The notes below the pieces were generated by a model. It ran no database searches. It was given only the letters and a program-made list of their open reading frames with translations, and was not told the DNA's origin. From Chitinivorax sp. PXF-14 (GTDB lineage: Bacteria > Pseudomonadota > Gammaproteobacteria > Burkholderiales > SCOH01), in contig NZ_JBFNXJ010000006.1 of assembly GCF_040812015.1 (NCBI RefSeq), forward strand, positions 62,001-126,000: a stretch of 64,000 nucleotides of DNA. The letters are read 5' to 3'. The translations under genes and the position numbers were made by a program. Of the stretch, positions 8,336 through 23,583 are shown piece by piece; the stretch's first letter is position 1; each line of letters opens with the position of its first letter.

Positions 8336-8997
8336 GGCGGGAAACTTATGTCATTTGGATGGGCGCTTATCTTAACCGATGACATGCGGGCAGGCGAGCG
8401 GCCCCGGGTAAGTAATGCTTAGTGCGGTTTCGGCGTAGGGGGGCATGGCGATGAGCCACGATTTCGCCAACAAGCCTGTGCATGTCCACGCCAAGCTGGC
8501 GGGCTGGCTGTTGATGGCGGCCATGGGCGTGTGCTAGCGGGGCGTACCGTCGCACGCGCCGCCGGCGGCGGCCCATTTCAGGCGGCATAACGCCGGCCTG
8601 TCGCTTTTGCCGGGGGGCTATCTGGTCCACCATGGGCTCGCTCACGCCGGCGCTCGGTTTCGCCCTGTTTGCCGTCAACGCCTGGAAGAATGCCGACACC
8701 GGACGCCGCGGCGAAATACGCTGGCCCGAGCAGACGCTGAAAATGCGGGGCGATGCTGGCATGCAGGTGCCCAGCGTCGAGCCTGGATATATCCGCCCGG
8801 CTACAGTTCTGCGGTCGGGATTTTTCATTCCGGCGATCGCCGCGATCGCCCCGCCTTGCCTGGCTCTCAGCCATCTTGCCTACTGCCGATTTGGCTGTGT
8901 CGACGATTATATTTTCCTGTATAAAGAAATTAGCTACCCACCCGCTGCCAGGGCCTGCCGACCGGCAAGGGGCGGGTGGCAGTATTGCGCTACCTGC
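8336..8997. other. 662-bp stretch without a convincing gene
   Basis: This gap lies between divergent genes. A 30-codon frame (ATG 8445, TAG 8535) encodes a start followed by a short hydrophobic segment (AKLAGWLLMAAMGVC). Beyond the stop, another frame reads SLTPALGFALFAVNAWKNADTG. Together these look like a possible decayed small membrane protein, but neither frame is supported by length or by a family. The last 120 bases are AT-richer (TATATT 8908, TATAAA 8920) and probably hold the promoter of the kinase gene. Confidence 0.45.
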
Positions 8998-11418
8998 ATG
9001 GATGCGGGACAAGACAACAAGCTGGACAACTATTTCATGGCGCAAGCGACACAGCCGAAGCAAGTCGGGCGATATCAGATCATCAAGTTGCTGGGCAAGG
9101 GCGGGCAGGGTGCCGTCTATTTCGCCCATGACCCCAAGCTGCAGCGCCCGGTAGCGCTGAAGACCGTCCGCCTTGACCGGCAGAGCCCGGAAGCGAAAGA
9201 GGCGTTGCTGATCGAGGCGCGCACCGTGAGCCAGGTGCAGCACCGTAATATCGTCACGCTGTACGACGTGATCGAGCAGGACGACTCGCTCTACCTGGTA
9301 TTCGAATATGTCGAGGGGCAGCCGCTGTCCCAGCTCCTGCGCGGTGGCCAATCGCTGGCGCCCGAGCGCGCGGTGGAGATCGCCCTGCAGGTGCTCGATG
9401 GGCTCGCCTACGCCCACGGCAAGAACATCATTCATTGCGACATCAAGCCCGCCAACATCATGATCGACGCGCAAGGCGTGGCGCGCATCATGGACTTCGG
9501 CATCGCGCGGAGGAGCGGCGACCGCAGCGAGCCATTGAACGGAACCGTGGCCTACATGGCGCCCGAGACGATAGAGGGCCAGGCGCAGGGCAAGGCGGTC
9601 GATGTGTTCGCGATGGGCATGGTGCTGTACGAGATGCTGGCGGGGCGCCCGCCCGTGTCCGGCGACAATGCGTTCAGACTGATGCATGCGATCGCCAACG
9701 AGCGCTTCCAGTCGCCCTCGGCGCTCAACCACGAGGTTGACGAAGCGTTGGATGGCATCGTCATGCGCGCGCTGCTCAAATCGCCCGACGACCGCTACCA
9801 CAACGCCGACGACATGCGCACCGCGCTCAAGCAGTACGCGGAACCGAGCAGTGCCGAGGAGGAGGTCGTCGACGCCAGCCAGAGCACGCTGGAATTCCTG
9901 CTGCGGCGCATCCGCCTGAAGAATGACTTCCCCGCGCTGTCTCAGTCCATCAGCGCCATCAACAAGATCACCAACGCCGATTCGGAAAGCCTGCACGCGC
10001 TGTCCGCGGTCATCCTCAAGGATTTCTCGCTGACCAACAAGCTCCTGCGGCTGGTCAACTCGGCGGTGTACGGCCATTTCGGTGGCACGATCAGCACGAT
10101 CTCGCGTGCGGTCATCATTCTCGGCTTCGAGACCGTGCGCAATCTGGCGATCACGCTGATCCTGTTCGAGCATCTGCAGAACAAGAGCCAGGCGCTGCAG
10201 CTGCGCGACGAGGTCATCCGCACCTTCTTCAACGGCCTGGTGGCGAAGCAGATCGAGCACAAGCTCGGTGGGCGCGGGGCGGAGGAAAGCTTCATCTGCG
10301 CCATGTTCCACAATCTGGGCCGGCTGCTGGCGCATTTCTATCTGTACGACGAGGCGATGGAGATCCGCCGCCGCGTACAGGCCGAGGAGATGAGCGAGCC
10401 ATCGGCCGAGATCGCGGTGCTCGGGCTGTCTTATGCCGAGCTGGGCATGGGCATCGCACGGGCCTGGAATTTCCCGGAGAAGATCGTCGAGAGCATGAAG
10501 CCGCCGGCCGATCATGTGCGCGCGCCGCAGAACCAGATGGAAAGGCTGCGTGCGGTCTCCGGCATGGCCAACGAGCTGACGCGCATCGCCACCGCGAGCC
10601 CGCCCAAGGAAAAGGCCAATCGGCTGTCCGCGCTGAGCCGGCGCTTCTCGTCCGCCTTGCCGCTGAGTGAAAGCGAGCTGACGCGGCTGGTCGACGAATC
10701 GATCAAGGAATTCATTAACGAGGCAGCACTGTTCGGTGTCAACTCGTCGCAGAGCGAGGCCCTGCGCAATGCGCGCGAATGGGCGGGGCTGCCGACCGCC
10801 AGCCGTGGCGCCAGCGACGAGCCGGCCGACACCATCGAGCGGCAAATCCTCGAGACTGAGGCCGTGGCCGCCGAGCTGATGCAGGAGCCCGACCGGCAAG
10901 ATGCCAAGGCGGTGCTGTCGGCGGGTATCCAGGACATCACCAACTCGCTGGTCGACAATTACAACCTCAACGACCTGCTGCGCATCATTCTGGAAACCAT
11001 GTATCGCGGCATGGGGTTCGACCGCGTGCTGCTGTGCACGCGCGATGTCCGCAGCAACGCACTGGCGGCCCGCATCGGCTTTGGCCCCAATATCGACATG
11101 ATACTGAAGCGTTTCGTCATTCCGCTGGGCAAGTCGCAGGATGTGTTCCAGGTTGCGCTCGACCGGCAGGCCGACATCTTTCTCAACGACGTCAACCAGG
11201 AAAACATCCGCGACCGCATCCCGCAGTGGTACAAGGACGCGCTTGGCGCGCAGACCTTCATCCTGCTGCCGCTGATCATCGACAAGAAGATCATTGGCCT
11301 GTTCTATGGTGACAAGGCGCGTGCAGGGGAGCTCCACATCCCGCCGGCGGAGCTGAATCTGCTCAAGACCCTGCGCAATCAGGCTGTGCTCGCCATCCGC
11401 CAGAAACAGATGGGCTGA
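8998..11418 (+). CDS. Ser/Thr protein kinase - HDOD - GAF fusion protein
   Basis: An 806-residue cytosolic signalling protein. The N-terminal Hanks-type kinase (about 24-285) has the glycine loop GKGGQGAV, invariant Lys in VALK, a catalytic loop HCDIKPAN (HCD rather than HRD) and MDFGIA. A central HDOD domain (about 297-500) carries NSAVYG and FHNLGR segments, and a C-terminal GAF domain (about 640-804) could sense a ligand. HDOD proteins are linked to c-di-GMP-related and stress signalling. An ATG at 9037 would remove 13 residues; the open frame continues upstream to 8632, but that part looks non-coding. No operon partner: flanking genes are an opposite-strand lipoprotein and phasin. Confidence 0.85.
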   Translation: MDAGQDNKLDNYFMAQATQPKQVGRYQIIKLLGKGGQGAVYFAHDPKLQRPVALKTVRLDRQSPEAKEALLIEARTVSQVQHRNIVTLYDVIEQDDSLYLVFEYVEGQPLSQLLRGGQSLAPERAVEIALQVLDGLAYAHGKNIIHCDIKPANIMIDAQGVARIMDFGIARRSGDRSEPLNGTVAYMAPETIEGQAQGKAVDVFAMGMVLYEMLAGRPPVSGDNAFRLMHAIANERFQSPSALNHEVDEALDGIVMRALLKSPDDRYHNADDMRTALKQYAEPSSAEEEVVDASQSTLEFLLRRIRLKNDFPALSQSISAINKITNADSESLHALSAVILKDFSLTNKLLRLVNSAVYGHFGGTISTISRAVIILGFETVRNLAITLILFEHLQNKSQALQLRDEVIRTFFNGLVAKQIEHKLGGRGAEESFICAMFHNLGRLLAHFYLYDEAMEIRRRVQAEEMSEPSAEIAVLGLSYAELGMGIARAWNFPEKIVESMKPPADHVRAPQNQMERLRAVSGMANELTRIATASPPKEKANRLSALSRRFSSALPLSESELTRLVDESIKEFINEAALFGVNSSQSEALRNAREWAGLPTASRGASDEPADTIERQILETEAVAAELMQEPDRQDAKAVLSAGIQDITNSLVDNYNLNDLLRIILETMYRGMGFDRVLLCTRDVRSNALAARIGFGPNIDMILKRFVIPLGKSQDVFQVALDRQADIFLNDVNQENIRDRIPQWYKDALGAQTFILLPLIIDKKIIGLFYGDKARAGELHIPPAELNLLKTLRNQAVLAIRQKQMG

Positions 11419-15257: not shown

Positions 15258-16652
15258 ATGTCCAAGCGAACCGAAACCGACTCGATGGGGGCGATCGAGG
15301 TCCCTGCCGATCGCTACTGGGGGGCGCAAACCCAGCGCTCCATCGAACATTTTCCGATCGGCGTTGCACGCTTTCGCTGGCGGCGCCCCATCATCCGCGC
15401 GCTCGGCATCCTCAAGCAGGCCGCAGCGCAGGCCAACGCCGAGCTGGGTGAGCTGCCCGCCGAGCTGGCGGGCTATATCGTCCGTGCCGCCGGCGAGGTA
15501 ATCGACGGCCGCCTCGATGGCCATTTTCCGCTGGTGGTGTTCCAGACTGGCTCGGGCACCCAGTCGAACATGAATGCCAACGAGGTGATCGCCAATCGCG
15601 CCATCGAGCTGGCCGGCGGCGTGATCGGCTCGAAGCAGCCCATTCATCCGAACGACCACGTCAACCGCAGCCAGTCGTCCAACGACACCTTCCCCACCGC
15701 GATGCACATTGCCGTTGCGGAATGCCTGCATGGCCAGCTGCTGCCGGCAGTGGGCGGCTTGCGCGATACGCTGGCGGACAAGTCCGATGCCTACCGGGAC
15801 CTCGTCAAGACGGGGCGAACCCATCTGCAGGATGCCACCCCGGTTACCCTCGGGCAGGAAATCGGCGCCTGGGTGGCACAGCTCGATTTCGCGCTGGATG
15901 GGGTCAGGCAGGCCTTGCCCGGCATTTACGAGTTGGCGATCGGCGGCACGGCGGTCGGGACGGGGCTCAACGCCCATCCGCAATTTGGCGAGCGTGCGGC
16001 GGCCCACATCGCGGCGCTGACGCAGCTGCCGTTCCGCGCCGCGGCGAACAAGTTCTTCGCCTTGTCGGCGCATGATGCGCTGGTGCAACTGTCGGCCTCG
16101 CTGCGCCTGCTCGCGAGCAGCCTGATGAAGATGGCGAACGACGTGCGCTGGCTTGCCAGCGGCCCCCGTTGCGGCATCGGTGAGCTGCTGATCCCCGAAA
16201 ACGAGCCGGGCTCGTCGATCATGCCCGGCAAGGTCAACCCGACACAGTGCGAGGCGCTGACCATGGTCTGCGTGCAGGTGTTCGGCAACGATGCCGCCGT
16301 TGCTTTCGCCGGCAGCCAGGGGCATTTCCAGCTCAATGTGTTCAAGCCGGTGATGGTGCACAACGTGCTGGAGAGCATCGAGCTGCTGTCCGACGCCTGC
16401 CGGGCCTTCAACCGCTATTGCGCCGCGGGTATCGAGCCTAATCGGGCCAGGATTGCCGACAACCTCGAGCGCAACCTGATGCTGGTGACGGCTCTGAATC
16501 GCCATATCGGCTATGACAAGGCCGCCAGTATTGCCAAGCAGGCAAACCAGCAGGGGCTGACGCTGAAGGAGGCGGCGCTGCGCTCCGGCTACGTCAGTGC
16601 GGTGCAATACGCGCAATGGATCGTACCGCTCGACATGACCCATCCGGGGTAA
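15258..16652 (+). CDS. fumC: Class II fumarate hydratase FumC
   Basis: A 464-residue iron-independent fumarase of the aspartase/fumarase superfamily, interconverting fumarate and malate in the TCA cycle. Recognisable parts are [13 protein letters not shown], the [17 protein letters not shown] region that binds substrate, [11 protein letters not shown], and the superfamily signature [11 protein letters not shown] (about 318-328). ATG 15258 is preceded by AGGAG with six-base spacing and gives the usual N-terminus; the frame extends upstream to 15102 but that part is non-coding. The second-helix region is slightly unusual (VARFRWRRP), though catalytic segments are intact. Confidence 0.95.
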
Positions 16653-16842
16653 CAGGAAGGCCCCATGCCTTGCCTGCCGGGGCTGGGAGGCGGGAAATCT
16701 ACATCAGCAGTTCATGGAACGCTGTTTGTTGCAGTGCGGCAACTCGTGTAGCATGACATGTGAATTACTAAATATAAAAAAAATTATCCGGATGGAAAGA
16801 GTGATGGGTAGTTGCATTCAACGGATAACACAGGGAGTTTAC

Positions 16843-17517
16843 ATGTCCAAGTTCGCATTTTTTGCCACTGCCGGGCTGGTGCTGGCCAGCCTGTCCGCTG
16901 CTGTCAGCGCCAATACCAACCTGGTGCAGAACGGCAGCTTCGAGGCGCAGAACATCAACGGCAAGCACGATGTACTCGAACTCTTCGCCGACACCAAGGA
17001 AATCAGGCAGACCGACGGCTGGGCTGCCGGCCACCAGACAGCCCACGGCTGGAAAAGGGATGAGATCCACCTGTATCGCGACGGCCTGTTCTCGACGGCT
17101 GCCGATGGCCGCCAGTATGTCGGGCTGGGCGAACTGCTCAACGTCGACGGCATCAGCCAGTCGCTGGCGACCAACGCCGGCAGCTTCTATTCGCTGAGCT
17201 TCGCGCTGAACACGCATTGGCTGGCGCTCAACCCGCTGCATTCCCTGCAGGTCAGCTTTGGCGATTCGTTCTCCGCGCTGGTGCAGAAGAGCCCGCTGCT
17301 CAACCTCAGCGGTGACTGGCAGACCTTCACCTTCGATCACCTGCGCGCCAGCAGCGCCAGCACCTTGCTGTCGTTCAACAATGTGGGCGGCCGGGTGTAT
17401 CTCGATAACGTCAGCGTGATCGCTGCGCCGGTGCCGGAGCCGCAAACCTGGGCCATGCTCGCCGCTGGCCTGGGCGTGGTGATGGTGGGCATTCGTCGTC
17501 GGGCCAACGTTCAGTAA
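16843..17517 (+). CDS. PEP-CTERM sorting-domain exported protein
   Basis: A 224-residue secreted protein. It has a signal peptide (residues 1-23, cut after VSA), a beta-rich body beginning NLVQNGSFEAQ and ending VYLDNVSV (DUF642/carbohydrate-binding-like pattern), and a C-terminal PEP-CTERM signal: VPEPQTWAML, hydrophobic helix, then basic RRRANVQ. Such proteins are recognised by exosortase EpsH/XrtA and are associated with exopolysaccharide and floc or biofilm formation. No exosortase gene lies in the window. GGGAG seven bases before ATG 16843 fixes the start. The upstream region is AT-rich, and a strong bidirectional terminator follows. Confidence 0.85.
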   Translation: MSKFAFFATAGLVLASLSAAVSANTNLVQNGSFEAQNINGKHDVLELFADTKEIRQTDGWAAGHQTAHGWKRDEIHLYRDGLFSTAADGRQYVGLGELLNVDGISQSLATNAGSFYSLSFALNTHWLALNPLHSLQVSFGDSFSALVQKSPLLNLSGDWQTFTFDHLRASSASTLLSFNNVGGRVYLDNVSVIAAPVPEPQTWAMLAAGLGVVMVGIRRRANVQ

Positions 17518-17532
17518 GCTGCCGCAGCAAGC

Positions 17533-17560
17533 AAAAAGGCCGGGTGACCCCGGCCTTTTT
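17533..17560. terminator. Bidirectional rho-independent terminator between PEP-CTERM gene and moeA
   Basis: AAAAAGGCCGGG paired with CCCGGCCTTTTT over a four-base loop. It separates convergent genes and carries T-runs on both strands. Confidence 0.92.
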
Positions 17561-17577
17561 GCTTTTCTGGCGCGCCG

Positions 17578-18798
17578 TCAGCCAAGCAGGCTGGCGTAAG
17601 ACAGGAAAGGGATAGTGTCGCCGCGTGCGATCGCCCGGCCCGGTGCGACGTCGATCAGGCCATCTGCCCAGCTGCACGAGGTCAGCACGCCCGAGCCCTG
17701 GTTGGGGAACAGCGATGCTTCGAGCCCGCCGCCGGCCGTCGGTGTGAGTTGTACGCGCAGGAACTCGCGCCGCTTGTCCGGCTTGATCCAGTCGAAACCG
17801 GCCGTGACCGGCATGGCCGGGGCTGCGGTGGCGTCGGCCCCCTGGCGTTGCAGGATGAACGGGCGCACGAACAGCAGGAAGGTGATGAAGCTCGACACCG
17901 GGTTGCCAGGCAGGCCGACGAATGGTGTCTGTGCCACCCGGCCGAAGGCCAGTGGCTTGCCCGGCTTCATGGCGATCTTCCACAGTTCGAGCGCACCCTC
18001 GGCCTCGACGGCGGCCTTGACGTGATCCTCCTCGCCCACCGATACGCCGCCGCAGGTCAGCACCAGGTCGTGGGCATCGGCGGCAGTCCGCAAGGCGGCG
18101 CGCGTGGCCGCCAGATCGTCGCGCACGATGCCGAGATCGGTTACGTCGCAGCCCAGGCTGTCCAGCAGGCCGCGTAGTACATAACGATTGGAGTTGTAGA
18201 TCTGGCTGGGGCCGAGATCGTTGCCCGGCATCACCAGCTCGTCGCCAGTGAAGAACACTGCGACCTTGAGCCGGCGCACGACGGCCATGCTGGCGATGCC
18301 GACGGATGCCGCCAGCCCCAGGTCCTGCGGCTTCAGTCGGCTGCCCGCGTGCAGGATGGCGCTGCCGGCGCGGATATCCTCGCCGCTGCGGCGTATGTTC
18401 TGCCCGGACCTGGGCGGGGTGTCGAAGCGCACCATCTCGCCCTCTACCGTTGCGAGCTCCTGCATGACCACGGCGTCGCAGCCCGGTGGGATGGGCGCCC
18501 CGGTAAAGATGCGCGCGGCACAGCCGGGCTGGAGTGGCTCGCCGGTGTGGCCGGCCGGGATGCGCTGCGAGACCCGCAGCGGGGCGCCGCCGGCCAGGTC
18601 CGCCAGGCGGATGGCGTAGCCATCCATGGCGCTGTTGTCGTGTGGCGGCACATTGTGCGGGGAGATCAGGTCGCGGGCCAGAATGCGGCCCGTGGCCAGC
18701 TCGGTCGCGACGGTCTCGTGCTCGGTGAGGGGCGCGGCGCCGTTGAGCAGCTGGCTCAGGGCGTCGTCGACGGACATCATGGGCTTGTCGTGTGTCAT
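17578..18798 (-). CDS. moeA: Molybdopterin molybdenumtransferase MoeA
   Basis: A 406-residue enzyme that inserts molybdate into adenylylated molybdopterin, the last step of basic molybdenum-cofactor synthesis. It contains the N-terminal NVPPHDNSAMDGYA motif, the central MPT-binding domain with TGDELV, PSQIYNSN and GGVSVGEEDHVK, and the GLPGNPVSS loop before the C-terminal beta-domain. Its ATG overlaps the stop of mobB by four bases (ATGA), so translation is coupled. It is the last gene of an HDOD-mobB-moeA unit. The length is standard. Confidence 0.95.
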   Translation of the reverse strand: MTHDKPMMSVDDALSQLLNGAAPLTEHETVATELATGRILARDLISPHNVPPHDNSAMDGYAIRLADLAGGAPLRVSQRIPAGHTGEPLQPGCAARIFTGAPIPPGCDAVVMQELATVEGEMVRFDTPPRSGQNIRRSGEDIRAGSAILHAGSRLKPQDLGLAASVGIASMAVVRRLKVAVFFTGDELVMPGNDLGPSQIYNSNRYVLRGLLDSLGCDVTDLGIVRDDLAATRAALRTAADAHDLVLTCGGVSVGEEDHVKAAVEAEGALELWKIAMKPGKPLAFGRVAQTPFVGLPGNPVSSFITFLLFVRPFILQRQGADATAAPAMPVTAGFDWIKPDKRREFLRVQLTPTAGGGLEASLFPNQGSGVLTSCSWADGLIDVAPGRAIARGDTIPFLSYASLLG

Positions 18799-19286
18799 AG
18801 TTCGAGTGTGTGGAGGATGAAGTCGGCAATCGGCGCCGGCGAATTCAGGTCAAAACGGGGTAGCTCGGTGGCAATCTCCATATCGCTGGCCAGCGCGACG
18901 ATATGCGGGTCGTGGCCGAACAGCAGGGGCTTGCCGAGCGCAGGCCGGTGTATCTCCAGCTTGGGGATCGCTTCGTGCTTGTAGCCTTCGATCAGCACCA
19001 GGTTGCAGGGGGCCAGCCGGCTGAGCAGCTGGGCCAGTGTGGGCTCTGCGTCCTCGCGGTTCTCGTGCAGCAATGCCCAGCGTTGCCCACCGGCCAGCAG
19101 CACTTCACTGGCGCCGGCCTGGCGGTGGCGCCAGCTGTCCTTGCCGGGCTGGTCGAGATCGAAGGCGTGGTGAGTGTGCTTGATCAGCGAGACGGTGAGC
19201 CCGCGCCCGGTGAGCAGTGGGATCAATTGCTCGATCAGTGTCGTCTTGCCGCTGCCCGAATAGCCACAGAAGCCGAATACCTTCAC
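18795..19286 (-). CDS. mobB: Molybdopterin-guanine dinucleotide biosynthesis protein MobB
   Basis: A 163-residue GTP-binding protein with P-loop GYSGSGKTT (about 8-16), the KHTHHAFDLDQPGKDSWRHR stretch and VLIEGYKHE typical of MobB. It assists MobA in attaching GMP to the cofactor. The start is GTG 19286, which overlaps the stop of the upstream HDOD gene (GTGA); its own stop overlaps the moeA ATG. This double overlap shows one tightly coupled operon. A longer frame exists upstream but belongs to the HDOD gene in another frame. Confidence 0.92.
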   Translation of the reverse strand: MKVFGFCGYSGSGKTTLIEQLIPLLTGRGLTVSLIKHTHHAFDLDQPGKDSWRHRQAGASEVLLAGGQRWALLHENREDAEPTLAQLLSRLAPCNLVLIEGYKHEAIPKLEIHRPALGKPLLFGHDPHIVALASDMEIATELPRFDLNSPAPIADFILHTLEL

Positions 19287-20134
19287 CGGCCGGCTTCCAG
19301 CAGTTGCTGCACGTCGTCGCACAGTTCCGCGTACTCGGCCTGGCTCAGGCCCAGGTATTCGAGGATCAGCGAGCCATTGCGCTGCCAATCCTGGTCGCGC
19401 GGCAGGTGGAGAAAGCTGTGCGCGATCTGCTCGGCGAGCTTGGTCACGGCGACCAGCACGCGCGTGTCCTCGGTGATCTCTTCGCTGGGCTCGGTGTAGA
19501 GCGCGGGGTCGTGGTGCATCAGGATGGCGAGGCCGATCTCCTCCGGTAGATACCAGCAGCGCGCCACCAGGTGGCCGACGATGGCGTGATGCGTGCCATG
19601 GCGCTCCTGCTCGATGGTGGTGAACGGCTTCTGGCGCGAGGCGTAGGCCAGGTCCAGCGTGTCCTGATAATCCTTGAAGCGCGCCAGCAACAGCGGGATG
19701 CCGCAATTCTGGAACAGGCCGAAGGTATAGGTCTGGTCACGCTGCGGCAGATTGAGCTGGGTGGCGATGAAGGCCGCCACCTGCGCGTCGAGCGCCGCCG
19801 TTTCCCAGAAGCGCTGCACATGGTGGTTGTCGGCGATATTCAGCGTGTTGCGCAGCGCCAGGCCGGTCGCCAGACTGATGGCGTTCGGCGCGCCCAGCAG
19901 CAACACGGCATGCCTGACCGAGGCCACGCGCTGCGGCAGCGAGAAAAACGGCGAGTTGACGGTCTTCAGGATGGCGGCGGACAGGCTGACATCCTGGCTG
20001 ATGATCTCTGCGATCCGGCCCGGCTCCAGTGTCGGCTGCTCGCGTTCGGCGGCAAGCTCCAGCATGACGGCGGGGCGGGGCGGGATGACGATACCGCGCA
20101 GGAGTTGGGCCGCATCTTGTTGGCTGATCTGCAT
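19283..20134 (-). CDS. HDOD domain protein, first gene of the moco operon
   Basis: A 283-residue protein consisting mainly of one HDOD domain (residues about 15-215; segments RPAVMLEL, SLSAAILKTVNSPFFSLP, AVLLLGAPNA, GLFQNCGIPLLL). HDOD is a non-catalytic relative of HD phosphohydrolases found in bacterial signalling proteins. ATG 20134 is the first methionine giving the usual N-terminus. It ends by overlapping the mobB start by four bases, and lies 181 bp from a divergent HD-GYP gene. Why an HDOD protein is co-translated with molybdenum-cofactor genes is not known; it could tune them or simply be co-transcribed. Confidence 0.85.
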   Translation of the reverse strand: MQISQQDAAQLLRGIVIPPRPAVMLELAAEREQPTLEPGRIAEIISQDVSLSAAILKTVNSPFFSLPQRVASVRHAVLLLGAPNAISLATGLALRNTLNIADNHHVQRFWETAALDAQVAAFIATQLNLPQRDQTYTFGLFQNCGIPLLLARFKDYQDTLDLAYASRQKPFTTIEQERHGTHHAIVGHLVARCWYLPEEIGLAILMHHDPALYTEPSEEITEDTRVLVAVTKLAEQIAHSFLHLPRDQDWQRNGSLILEYLGLSQAEYAELCDDVQQLLEAGR

Positions 20135-20260
20135 GGCTGGCTCGAAATATGTCTGCCGCCATTTTACCCGTACCGCCGACACGGTGCAGCAGCCGGTTGT
20201 CGCATCGCTGCCTTCGCCGGGCCGGTGCCCCCGCTTCATCGCCGCAAAAGCGCTACAGGC

Positions 20261-20289
20261 TTGCGATGGCGAGGGGGCTGGCTTATAAA
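20261..20289 (+). promoter_or_regulatory. Promoter of the HD-GYP gene
   Basis: -35 TTGCGA (20261-20266), 17-bp spacer, -10 TATAAA (20284-20289). Transcription would start about 20 bases before the ATG at 20316, giving a short leader without a clear ribosome-binding site. Confidence 0.6.
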
Positions 20290-20315
20290 ATAGCGATCCC
20301 CTTGCGCATTGCAAC

Positions 20316-21596
20316 ATGTCATCTTACGACGCTACCCGCGGCAACCCACACTTCCTTGACCGAGTCATGTCGCTGGCCGAGCATGAGGCGGTTGTTGCGT
20401 CCGAGGACATCTATTCCGAGTCGGGCATCAAGCTGCTGGCCAAGGGGAAGCCGCTCTCACCGGTGCTGCGGGAGCGGCTGCTGTTGCAGCGCTTGCGCCG
20501 CCCGCTCGAAGCCTGCCTCGCGCCAGCCCAGGGGGTGGCCGCGACAGATATCGGGCAGATCGCCCATGAACTGATCGAGAGCTGGCCGATACTGGCGCCC
20601 TTGTGCCTGGATGAGGGCCGGCCCTGGCCACTGTCCTGGCTGGCACAGGTACCCGTGAATCAGGTGACGGCCTTGCTGCTGAGCGTGAGTGCGCGGGCCG
20701 GCGCCGGGGTGTTGCGCCATGCCGTGCTGGTCACGCTCGTGGCGCTGGGCCTGGCACGCCGGATGCAGGCCTCGCCCGAGGTGATGCGCACGCTGGCAAT
20801 TGCCGGCCTGCTGCACGACGTTGGTGAGTTGTATGTCGCGCCGGAAGTCCTGTCCTCACGTGCCGATCTGTCGCTCGACGACTGGCGAGCACTCGCGGTG
20901 CATCCGCTGACCGGGGCCAAGGTGATCGAAGGCATTGCCGGCCTGGGGGCGCCCGTGGCACTGGCGGTGCTGCAACACCACGAGCGCCATGACGGCACCG
21001 GCTACCCGCGCCGCCTGGCGGGCGCTGCCATGAGCCCTGCCGCGAAGATTCTGGCGACGGCGGAGGCCATGGCGGGGCTCATCCCTGGGCCGGAGGAATC
21101 GTCACTGCGGGCATCGGTCGCCTTCAAGGTGATCACTTCCGATCATGCGCCGGCGGTGGTGGCGGCCGTGCGTTCGGTACTGAACGAGATGTCCGATGCG
21201 CCGGATGTCGAGATGACGCCGCTCGAAGCCGTGGTGGAAATCCATCGGCTGATTGCCTACATCGGGGATGTCTTCATGGTGATCGAGCTGGCGGGCGAGC
21301 GGCTTGCCACGCCCGGTGCCCAAGCGCTGCTGGGTGACATCGAGGCGCGCTTCACCGAGCTGCACCGCGCCTTCTCGCGTACTGGGCTGGGCGGCGTGAC
21401 GGCTGGCTATGAGGTCAGCTGGCTCGATTATGAATCCCCTGACGAGGGCGTGGCGGAGGTCGCCGCCGTGGCGCGCGAGATCCGCTGGCGCCTGCGCGAG
21501 CTGGCCCGCGACATCGCGCTGCGGGCCAGTTCGCTGGCGGACGATGAGCGTACCGTGTTTTCTACGCTGATCGGCACCCTGACCCGGCGGCGCTGA
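20316..21596 (+). CDS. HD-GYP domain protein (putative c-di-GMP phosphodiesterase)
   Basis: A 426-residue cytosolic protein. The HD-GYP domain occupies about 130-260: LLHDVGELYV (HD pair about 165-166), HPLTGAKVI, and HHERHDGTGYPRRL with an intact GYP-type HDGTGYP. These residues bind the metal centre that cleaves cyclic di-GMP, so catalysis is plausible. The N-terminal part (PHFLDRV... IYSESGIKLLAKG) resembles the small beta domain often preceding HD-GYP, and the C-terminal 150 residues are helical and unassigned. It faces the HDOD-mobB-moeA operon, which may share regulation. Confidence 0.85.
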   Translation: MSSYDATRGNPHFLDRVMSLAEHEAVVASEDIYSESGIKLLAKGKPLSPVLRERLLLQRLRRPLEACLAPAQGVAATDIGQIAHELIESWPILAPLCLDEGRPWPLSWLAQVPVNQVTALLLSVSARAGAGVLRHAVLVTLVALGLARRMQASPEVMRTLAIAGLLHDVGELYVAPEVLSSRADLSLDDWRALAVHPLTGAKVIEGIAGLGAPVALAVLQHHERHDGTGYPRRLAGAAMSPAAKILATAEAMAGLIPGPEESSLRASVAFKVITSDHAPAVVAAVRSVLNEMSDAPDVEMTPLEAVVEIHRLIAYIGDVFMVIELAGERLATPGAQALLGDIEARFTELHRAFSRTGLGGVTAGYEVSWLDYESPDEGVAEVAAVAREIRWRLRELARDIALRASSLADDERTVFSTLIGTLTRRR

Positions 21597-21625
21597 TTGC
21601 GGCAAGCCGTGGCGGCCTGCCCGCG

Positions 21626-22582
21626 CTAACTTGCCGGCTGTGTCTTCGACGGTTTGGCGGGCGACAGGCGGGTGACGCCGAACATGACCAGCGCCAGGCC
21701 GGCCAGCTGGACCAGCGATAATTGTTCACCGAGCAGCCACCAGGCAGCGGCTACCGTCAACACAGGGCCCAGCGAACCAATCGCCGCCGCTTCGCCGGCG
21801 CCCATGCGACGGATGGCCTGCGCCAGTGCCCAGATCGGCAGCACGGTGGACAGCAGGGCCATCAGCGCCGCATCGAGCCACACCTGGGCGGGCAGGGCCA
21901 GCAACTGGTGTGGCTCGCCGCGCAGCAACCAGTGCGCCAGCACCATCAGCGACGAGGCCGCGCCGGTCAGGCCAGTGAGGCGCATCGAGCCGAGCTTGCC
22001 AACCACATTGCCGGTACCGAGATAGTACAGCGCGTAGGTGACGGCGCTGGCCAGCACCCAGCCGGCGCCGATCAGGGCATCGGCCGAGGTGCCGGTCTGC
22101 CGTAGATCGTGCGCAAACGCGACTGCCAGGCCCAGGTAGCAGCAGGCTATTGCCTGCCAGGCGCCGCGGCTGGGCTTGCGCTTGGAGAACCAGGTCTGCA
22201 GCAGCAGCACGAGCGTCGGGTAAATGTAGAGAATCAACCGTTCGAGCCCGGCGGAGATATAACGCAGCCCCTCGAAATCGAACAGGCTCGACAGGTAGTA
22301 GCCCAGGCAGCCGAGCAGCAGCACCTGGCCGACGGTCGAACGATCGAGCGGTGCCGCCTGCCCGTCGGTGGGCGTACGGGCGAGCCACAGGAAGAAGGGC
22401 AGCGCGATACCCATGCGCAGCGCCAGCAGCGTCGATGCATCCACCGGCGCGGCGGCGTAGGCAAGTTTGACGAAGATGGCCTTCAGCGAAAAGCCGAATG
22501 CGGCCAGCACCGCGAATGTCCGGCCATCGAGCTGGGTATGCCAGCTTTCTTTAATTGATAAGGATTGGGTCTGGCTGCTCAT
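21626..22582 (-). CDS. EamA/DMT family transporter
   Basis: A 318-residue inner-membrane protein with about ten hydrophobic helices in two EamA repeats (AFGFSLKAIFVKLAYA in the first, GAGEAAAIGSLGPVLTV in the second). Drug/metabolite transporters of this size export amino acids, cofactor precursors or other small metabolites; the substrate cannot be named. It is divergent from a LysR regulator gene 104 bp away, a common arrangement for regulated exporters. ATG 22582 is preferred; an in-frame ATG at 22594 would add four residues. It ends close to the convergent HD-GYP gene with no clear terminator. Confidence 0.85.
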   Translation of the reverse strand: MSSQTQSLSIKESWHTQLDGRTFAVLAAFGFSLKAIFVKLAYAAAPVDASTLLALRMGIALPFFLWLARTPTDGQAAPLDRSTVGQVLLLGCLGYYLSSLFDFEGLRYISAGLERLILYIYPTLVLLLQTWFSKRKPSRGAWQAIACCYLGLAVAFAHDLRQTGTSADALIGAGWVLASAVTYALYYLGTGNVVGKLGSMRLTGLTGAASSLMVLAHWLLRGEPHQLLALPAQVWLDAALMALLSTVLPIWALAQAIRRMGAGEAAAIGSLGPVLTVAAAWWLLGEQLSLVQLAGLALVMFGVTRLSPAKPSKTQPAS

Positions 22583-22649
22583 GCGCACTACCATCTATCA
22601 TCTATGGATAATGCTGATTCTGCCGATGTATCTGCGAAAGTAGAATGCG

Positions 22650-22677
22650 TTTTCGATGAACTTACCTTTCTCGAAAA
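22650..22677. promoter_or_regulatory. Dyad TTTTCGA-N14-TCGAAAA before the LysR gene
   Basis: Seven-base perfect arms (22650-22656 and 22671-22677) immediately upstream of the LysR start at 22687. Position and spacing suit an autoregulatory or shared operator of the divergent pair, though the arms do not follow the plain T-N11-A pattern. Confidence 0.4.
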
Positions 22678-22686
22678 AAGAAGGCT

Positions 22687-23583
22687 ATGCGGCATTTTGA
22701 TCTCAATGACTTACGCCTGATCCTGTCCATCGCCGAGCATGGCAGCCTGAGCCGCGCGGCGGCGGCCTTCCCGATTGCGCTGTCGGCCGCCAGCAACCGG
22801 CTGCGGCAGGTGGAGGAGCGGCTCGGCTTGCCCTTGTTCGTCCGCCACGCCGACGGCATGACGCCTACCATCGCTGGCCGCCTGGCACTCGATCATGCTC
22901 GCCGTGTGCTGAACGAAGCCGATGCGCTCGAATCGACCATGAACGGGCTGCGCGGCCAGGCGCGGGTGGTCTTGCGCCTGGCGGCCAACACGGTTGCCAA
23001 CAGCACGTTCTTGCCGGTGGCCCTGGGGCCCTTCCTCACCCGTTTTCAACTGGTCGATCTGCAGATCGACGAACTCAGCAGCCGTGACATCGCAGCCGCA
23101 GTGCGTGCGGGCGAGGTCGACATGGGGGTGCTGGATGGCAATGTCGCCACCGAAGGCCTGACCAGCCTGCCGTTCCGGCAGGACAGGCTGGTGCTGTTCG
23201 TGCCGGCCGCGCATCGGCTCGCCGCAGCCGGTCATTGCCGCTTTCAGGAGGTGGCGGGGGAGGCCTTCGTCGGCTTGCCGGAGGCACGTGCGATGCAACG
23301 GTTCGTCGAGGGCATGGCACGGCTCGCGGGCAAGGCGATGACGGTGCGTGTGCGTGCCCCCAGCTTTTTCGCGATTGCACAGCTGGTCTCGCAGGGAGTG
23401 GGCGTTGCCGTGCTGCCTGAGGCGGCCGCCATCCGCCACCGCAGCAGCCTGGCCGGCGCCATCGTCGAAATCGAAGACAGCTGGGCCACGCGCGAGCTGC
23501 GCCTATGCTTGCGTGCGCCCGATGATCTGGGGCCGGAGGCACGCGCGCTGGTGGCGCACCTGACCGGCGCGTCGCCGCTGTAG
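22687..23583 (+). CDS. LysR family transcriptional regulator
   Basis: A 298-residue regulator. The N-terminal winged helix-turn-helix (about 5-62: DLNDLRLILSIAEHGSLSRAAAAF then SNRLRQVEERLG) is typical of LysR; the rest forms the type-2 periplasmic-binding-like effector domain (about 90-295). The GSLSRAAA segment is the recognition region. It is divergent from the EamA transporter gene, which is the most likely target. The start has a purine-rich AAGAAGG just before it with very short spacing. The effector is unknown. Confidence 0.9.
   Translation: MRHFDLNDLRLILSIAEHGSLSRAAAAFPIALSAASNRLRQVEERLGLPLFVRHADGMTPTIAGRLALDHARRVLNEADALESTMNGLRGQARVVLRLAANTVANSTFLPVALGPFLTRFQLVDLQIDELSSRDIAAAVRAGEVDMGVLDGNVATEGLTSLPFRQDRLVLFVPAAHRLAAAGHCRFQEVAGEAFVGLPEARAMQRFVEGMARLAGKAMTVRVRAPSFFAIAQLVSQGVGVAVLPEAAAIRHRSSLAGAIVEIEDSWATRELRLCLRAPDDLGPEARALVAHLTGASPL

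Follow-up and report, generated by a model that had tools for sequence, protein, structure and literature searches.

An HDOD gene overlapping mobB and moeA in Chitinivorax sp. PXF-14: a probable family-specific operon

Why should the gene for an HDOD-domain protein overlap mobB, which in turn overlaps moeA? This arrangement is found in a 64,000-nucleotide stretch of DNA from Chitinivorax sp. PXF-14 (the window; source genome 4.42 Mb, 65 contigs), and the coordinates of the features discussed below are collected in Table 1. The original prediction was that synthesis of a signalling protein is locked in ratio to the molybdenum cofactor (Moco) genes and that, with a divergent HD-GYP gene located nearby, c-di-GMP and Moco-dependent respiration may be linked. 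Part of this interpretation stood, namely that the three genes form an overlapping set, which is conserved in the family of the source organism. The ratio lock, the linkage across the order and the c-di-GMP connection through the HD gene found no support.

Table 1. Features of the HDOD-mobB-moeA region (positions in the window).
Feature	Position	Strand	Description
Hairpin just 3' of moeA	17529..17564		16-bp stem, 4-nt loop, U-rich 3' arm
moeA	17578..18798	minus	406 aa, ATG start
mobB/moeA overlap	18795..18798	minus	4 bp, ATGA, mobB stop / moeA start
mobB	18795..19286	minus	163 aa, GTG start
HDOD/mobB overlap	19283..19286	minus	4 bp, GTGA, HDOD stop / mobB start
HDOD-domain protein gene	19283..20134	minus	283 aa; first of three overlapping cistrons
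Intergenic region between divergent HDOD and HD starts	20135..20315		181 bp
HD_5-domain protein gene	20316..21596	plus	Divergent neighbour; PF13487, E 7.6e-22 (Pfam)

The nucleotide sequence and the translations confirmed both overlaps as predicted, the HDOD stop codon TGA occupying positions 19283-19285 and the mobB start codon positions 19284-19286. The HDOD assignment was based on Pfam only, and those of MobB and MoeA on Pfam and NCBIfam. PF08668 matched residues 17-210 of the first protein over the full domain (E 8.9e-42; 143.2 bits, curated cut-off 22.9), Pfam detected HDOD alone, without a second domain, and the nearest solved HDOD sequence was 3hc1 (E 5.1e-14). The second protein matched PF03205 (E 3.9e-51) and the MobB equivalog TIGR00176 (161.5 bits, cut-off 76.2), while the narrower model NF008021 remained below its cut-off (162.6 against 204). 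In the third, the N, MoCF-binding and C-terminal domains of MoeA (PF03453, PF00994 and PF03454) all scored over their cut-offs, and the best equivalog model, NF007960, slightly under its own (426.2 against 440). The adjacency of mobB and moeA in the window is that of a known pair, for which NCBIfam holds a MobB/MoeA fusion model (NF011060); what distinguishes the window from mobB-moeA elsewhere is the HDOD gene that precedes the pair.

Overlaps of the −4/−1 type have the geometry tied to termination-reinitiation, and a passage of PMC10666635 calls the coupling at such junctions tight. Both junctions of the set have this geometry in all five genomes of the family, and the proposal that the overlaps are of the translational-coupling type was borne out to that extent. 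The ATGA and GTGA pairs described as coupled in passages of PMC6728339 and PMC10666635 share the overlap geometry of the two window junctions; they differ in that the HDOD and MobB proteins have no known common function, and coupling in the window is putative. The idea of a locked ratio fared worse, since the strength of coupling differs from pair to pair and equal output would require an efficiency of 100%, as stated in a passage of PMC6728339. Overlaps of this size are also common. The same source gives about 15% of co-directional pairs as overlapping in most groups, and −4 is given as the commonest intergenic distance in PMC10666635. Within the window, a 4-bp overlap occurred in 6 of the 46 co-directional neighbour pairs, HDOD/mobB and mobB/moeA being two of the six, by a crude codon-usage gene call of 68 genes, for which nine window genes, these three among them, served as the training set.

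The family of the source organism (SCOH01) consists of five genomes in three genera, one of the genomes being 86% complete. The order HDOD, mobB, moeA was found in all five; the linkage is thus not confined to one genome, which the original prediction had named as an outcome that would speak against it. The HDOD proteins of the four relatives share 50-69% identity with the window protein. The HDOD/mobB overlap is 4 bp in four genomes and 1 bp in the other; this junction reads GTGA in the window, TAATG in one of the relatives and ATGA in the other three, and the mobB/moeA junction is a 4-bp ATGA in all five. MoeA_N and MobB each matched once per genome, so that in the source genome mobB and moeA are the single matches of their kind. 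The conservation appears to be more than chance because the order is kept in all five genomes and the junctions stay −4/−1 although HDOD identity falls to 50%. Part of it must be background synteny, however, since all five genomes also keep relA on the side of moeA. Between relA and moeA the window has fumC and a gene for a PEP-CTERM protein (15258-17517); the fetched regions of the four relatives had no match to either.

On the other side of the set the neighbour varies between the genera of the family. In the source genome the HD gene comes next outward from HDOD, with an EamA gene beyond it. In two relatives, both of one genus, EamA lies directly upstream on the HDOD strand at a distance of about 80-180 bp, so HDOD need not open the transcript there. 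In a further relative (L103) the adjoining gene reads, by eye from its translation, as the large subunit of sulfate adenylyltransferase, and the remaining locus (L104) is on a short contig with the upstream neighbour outside the annotation. In the HDOD tree the five family sequences fell into two supported clades, of three and two rows, with a backbone that lacks resolution; for this reason a single origin of the five HDOD genes rests on gene order.

Outside the family the arrangement was not seen. Neither mobB nor moeA was beside HDOD in any of the 25 non-family loci among 30 HDOD loci (1.5-kb flanks), or in any of 62 loci from named genome records (flanks up to 6 kb). From the opposite direction, no HDOD gene was found upstream of mobB in the 25 non-family loci of 30 mobB loci, among the matches listed; in two of these 25 (L110 and L116) the contig stops before any upstream gene, and some of the sampled HDOD, HD and mobB loci likewise end at contig ends. 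Inspection by eye of the matches listed for a 300-genome sample gave no further tight HDOD/mobB pair. Most of the named HDOD relatives came from records of beta- and gammaproteobacteria; three weak ones were Desulfo- records. A MoeA match beside mobB was present in 21 of the 30 mobB loci, the five of the family included, among the matches listed. In these samples, then, the linkage is confined to the family, being neither unique to the source genome nor order-wide. Conservation of HDOD-mobB-moeA synteny, the check proposed with the original prediction, was upheld within the family (five of five genomes) and rejected for the wider order in the loci sampled.

Both HDOD and mobB take varied neighbours elsewhere. 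Ten genes upstream of mobB were scanned, and moaA, a DNA polymerase III-like gene, a transporter, a kinase and a pseudouridine synthase were among them. The mobB gene overlaps an S4/pseudouridine synthase gene by 4 bp in L122 and L125, which belong to one genus, and an EamA gene by 4 bp in L135. In L114 moaA lies upstream of mobB in divergent orientation (several other loci read alike, by eye only), and in L134 the upstream gene encodes an ABC-TOBE protein that, in our reading, could be a molybdate transporter subunit. Since some mobB neighbours are in this way related to molybdenum, a functionally related neighbour would not be surprising. As for HDOD, the next called gene is on the same strand in 41 of 85 places and on the other strand in 44. 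A hydantoinase A/B gene follows HDOD in L017 (1-1473), L055 (7925-11530) and L060 (6800-10498), and other genes found next to it are FapA (L052), Fapy-DNA glycosylase (L061), TGT (L079 and L064), P-type ATPase and MFS; for two of 20 neighbours scanned (L059 and L038) there was no family match. In L055, a Tepidiphilus record with two HDOD genes in tandem, the second of these overlaps the hydantoinase A/B gene by 4 bp, another instance of an HDOD gene joined to a metabolic gene.

Taking the conservation within the family and the varied partners outside it together, we consider it probable that HDOD-mobB-moeA is an ordinary family-specific operon, whose order is kept for the expression of the sole Moco genes and not for an action of HDOD on the cofactor. 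The three genes would form one transcription unit, with an order that dates to the ancestor of the family. Transcription would start upstream of HDOD, the first of the three cistrons, which in the source genome probably lies beside the promoter, and would end at the hairpin after moeA. Ribosomes finishing HDOD would re-initiate on mobB and then on moeA through the −4/−1 overlaps. Any rearrangement that parted the three genes would deprive the sole Moco genes of expression, and the order would be preserved because the only copies of mobB and moeA would depend on the HDOD cistron.

An 81-nt stretch containing the hairpin after moeA folds with a z-score of −5.34, and a pattern scan also gave a site at 17536-17551, with the region's three hits barely exceeding the shuffled mean of 2.0. 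Judging from the sequence, this hairpin is the probable end of the operon, and it possibly serves the convergent gene too. At the other end, the intergenic region between the divergent starts is presumed, by its position, to hold the promoters of both HDOD and HD; repeats in it are short and imperfect. No consensus match to a sigma-70 promoter was found in 17400-20700, which is a weak test. Control of the operon by a Moco riboswitch was considered and discarded, since the leader had no Rfam match; no Rfam family reached its gathering score in 16600-22700.

The overlaps could, on the other hand, carry little coupling if mobB and moeA had their own promoter inside HDOD or a strong independent initiation. 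A GGAAG sequence located 7 nt upstream of the mobB GTG agrees with this possibility. It is rendered rather unlikely by the retention of the −4/−1 overlap in all five family genomes, and the weak promoter search just mentioned, which covered the HDOD gene, gave no promoter-like site. If the operon reading is correct, there is a practical consequence: a mutation in HDOD could be polar on the sole mobB and moeA genes of a family member, and a resulting nitrate-respiration or biofilm phenotype could be misread as signalling.

The alternative closest to the original prediction is that HDOD is functionally tied to the cofactor, binding or regulating MobB or MoeA or gating the use of molybdoenzymes, with coupling fixing the ratio. 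The conserved linkage and overlaps in the five genomes are what it would predict, and short overlaps are enriched among subunits of heteromeric complexes according to a passage of PMC10666635. The source genome has, in addition, eight matches to the molybdopterin oxidoreductase domain, some of which may be NuoG. Co-occurrence points the same way. In a sample of 300 genomes MobB was present in 90 of 100 HDOD-bearing and 119 of 200 HDOD-less genomes (odds 6.1, Fisher p 1.4e-8), a comparison that ignores ancestry and genome size. The control, uncorrected in the same two respects, was weaker, with MobB in 38 of 45 HD-bearing and 171 of 255 HD-less genomes (odds 2.7, p 0.02). The HDOD-MobB association counts against the ordinary-operon reading, and it may reflect small genomes that lack both genes. 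Against a functional tie, MobB is found in nine-tenths of the HDOD genomes and yet none of the loci examined outside the family showed the linkage, HDOD and mobB both pair with other genes elsewhere, and a full-text literature search for HDOD with "molybd" found nothing beyond an unrelated materials paper. We regard such a tie as unlikely. Narrower still is the proposal that HDOD serves the last Moco steps as a dedicated partner or regulator, is made together with MobB and MoeA and sets how much finished cofactor reaches the family's molybdoenzymes, which we find distinctly improbable. Were it true that HDOD governs Moco maturation, a widespread domain whose mechanism is described as unsettled in a passage of PMC6543031 would gain a metabolic target.

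Compared with other HDOD proteins, the one of the window has the HD dyad replaced by Q142-N143 (among the aligned rows, H is present at 142 in 41 of 90 and D at 143 in 51 of 90). Presumably it acts in signalling or as a scaffold, without catalysis and with a role of its own. What HDOD domains do is, according to part of PMC6543031, not yet established; the same paper describes SadB, which has YbaK and HDOD domains and is reported to bind c-di-GMP. The window protein is likewise an HDOD protein, without the second domain. Excerpts of PMC13259868 describe pterin-controlled turnover of c-di-GMP through PruA, PruR and DcpA and a moeA mutant with changed motility, and this system may be taken by analogy as a general precedent for a pterin/Moco link, with other proteins. 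For Burkholderia thailandensis, a title in the reference list of PMC5524735 connects the synthesis of Moco with respiration, biofilm and motility. At the window locus the evidence for a signalling-to-Moco link, or for a c-di-GMP link, consists of adjacency and uncorrected co-occurrence only.

The remaining neighbour is the divergent HD gene, which was confirmed at the predicted distance: 181 bp separate its ATG (20316) from that of HDOD (20134). Its designation as HD-GYP was accurate in part. The extended motifs of HD-GYP domains are HDxGK and HHExxDGxGYP, as given in a passage of PMC3749722, which adds that diverged domains may still regulate. The window protein shares the second motif with the HD-GYP phosphodiesterases (HHERHDGTGYP, residues 221-231) and differs at the first, where E replaces the lysine (HDVGE, residues 167-171). 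Since HDxGE takes the place of HDxGK in 29 of 31 aligned rows, HD-GYP activity is not to be assumed. Solved relatives of the protein include 9rbz, 5z7c and 4mcw.

The gene is probably outside the HDOD-mobB-moeA unit. No match to it was found beside HDOD in the regions fetched from the four family relatives, three of which have a homologue away from HDOD, and it would seem either to have been inserted between EamA and HDOD in the source genome or to have been lost in the other genus. Homologues were present in 45 of the 300 genomes at 1e-20. A reading of HDOD and HD as a divergent pair for c-di-GMP signalling with a shared control region, and of mobB and moeA as its passengers, was nevertheless weighed, because Formivibrio citricus (L046, 4647-6837) has a divergent pair of an HD homologue (36%) and an HDOD homologue (41%), the matches lying 175 bp apart, in a locus where mobB and moeA are absent. 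Genes of the two kinds also co-occur, HDOD-like genes being found in 27 of the 45 HD-bearing and 73 of the 255 HD-less genomes. This reading is nonetheless very improbable. Besides the four relatives, 61 of 62 named HDOD loci have no HD match near HDOD, and 29 of 30 HD loci have no HDOD match in their 1.5-kb flanks, the window's own being the only one (contig ends truncate some loci in both sets). The HD tree placed the window protein with one from another family (97/99) and the Formivibrio protein with a third family (92/83); the other three HD proteins of the window's family fell elsewhere. HD-HDOD as a generally conserved divergent pair was rejected from these counts and clades. A link between c-di-GMP and Moco by way of the HD gene likewise found no support: the four relatives lack the gene at this site, the homologues that three of them have elsewhere do not group with it, and the first motif is HDxGE. 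A more direct connection with c-di-GMP was seen in L045 (6880-10497, a Sulfuricella record), where the next gene after HDOD encodes a HAMP-PAS-GGDEF-EAL protein.

The HDOD and HD proteins of the window are a small part of the repertoire of the source genome, which gave 11 HD_5 matches and 11 HDOD matches, nine of the latter over the cut-off, with three places common to both searches. The genome-wide HDOD search also matched a 928-aa frame on the plus strand of the window (8632-11418), and HDOD proteins are therefore encoded on either side of relA. The orthologue of this frame in L101 has a Ser/Thr kinase region followed by HDOD-like and GAF-like regions, the kinase and GAF being read by eye.
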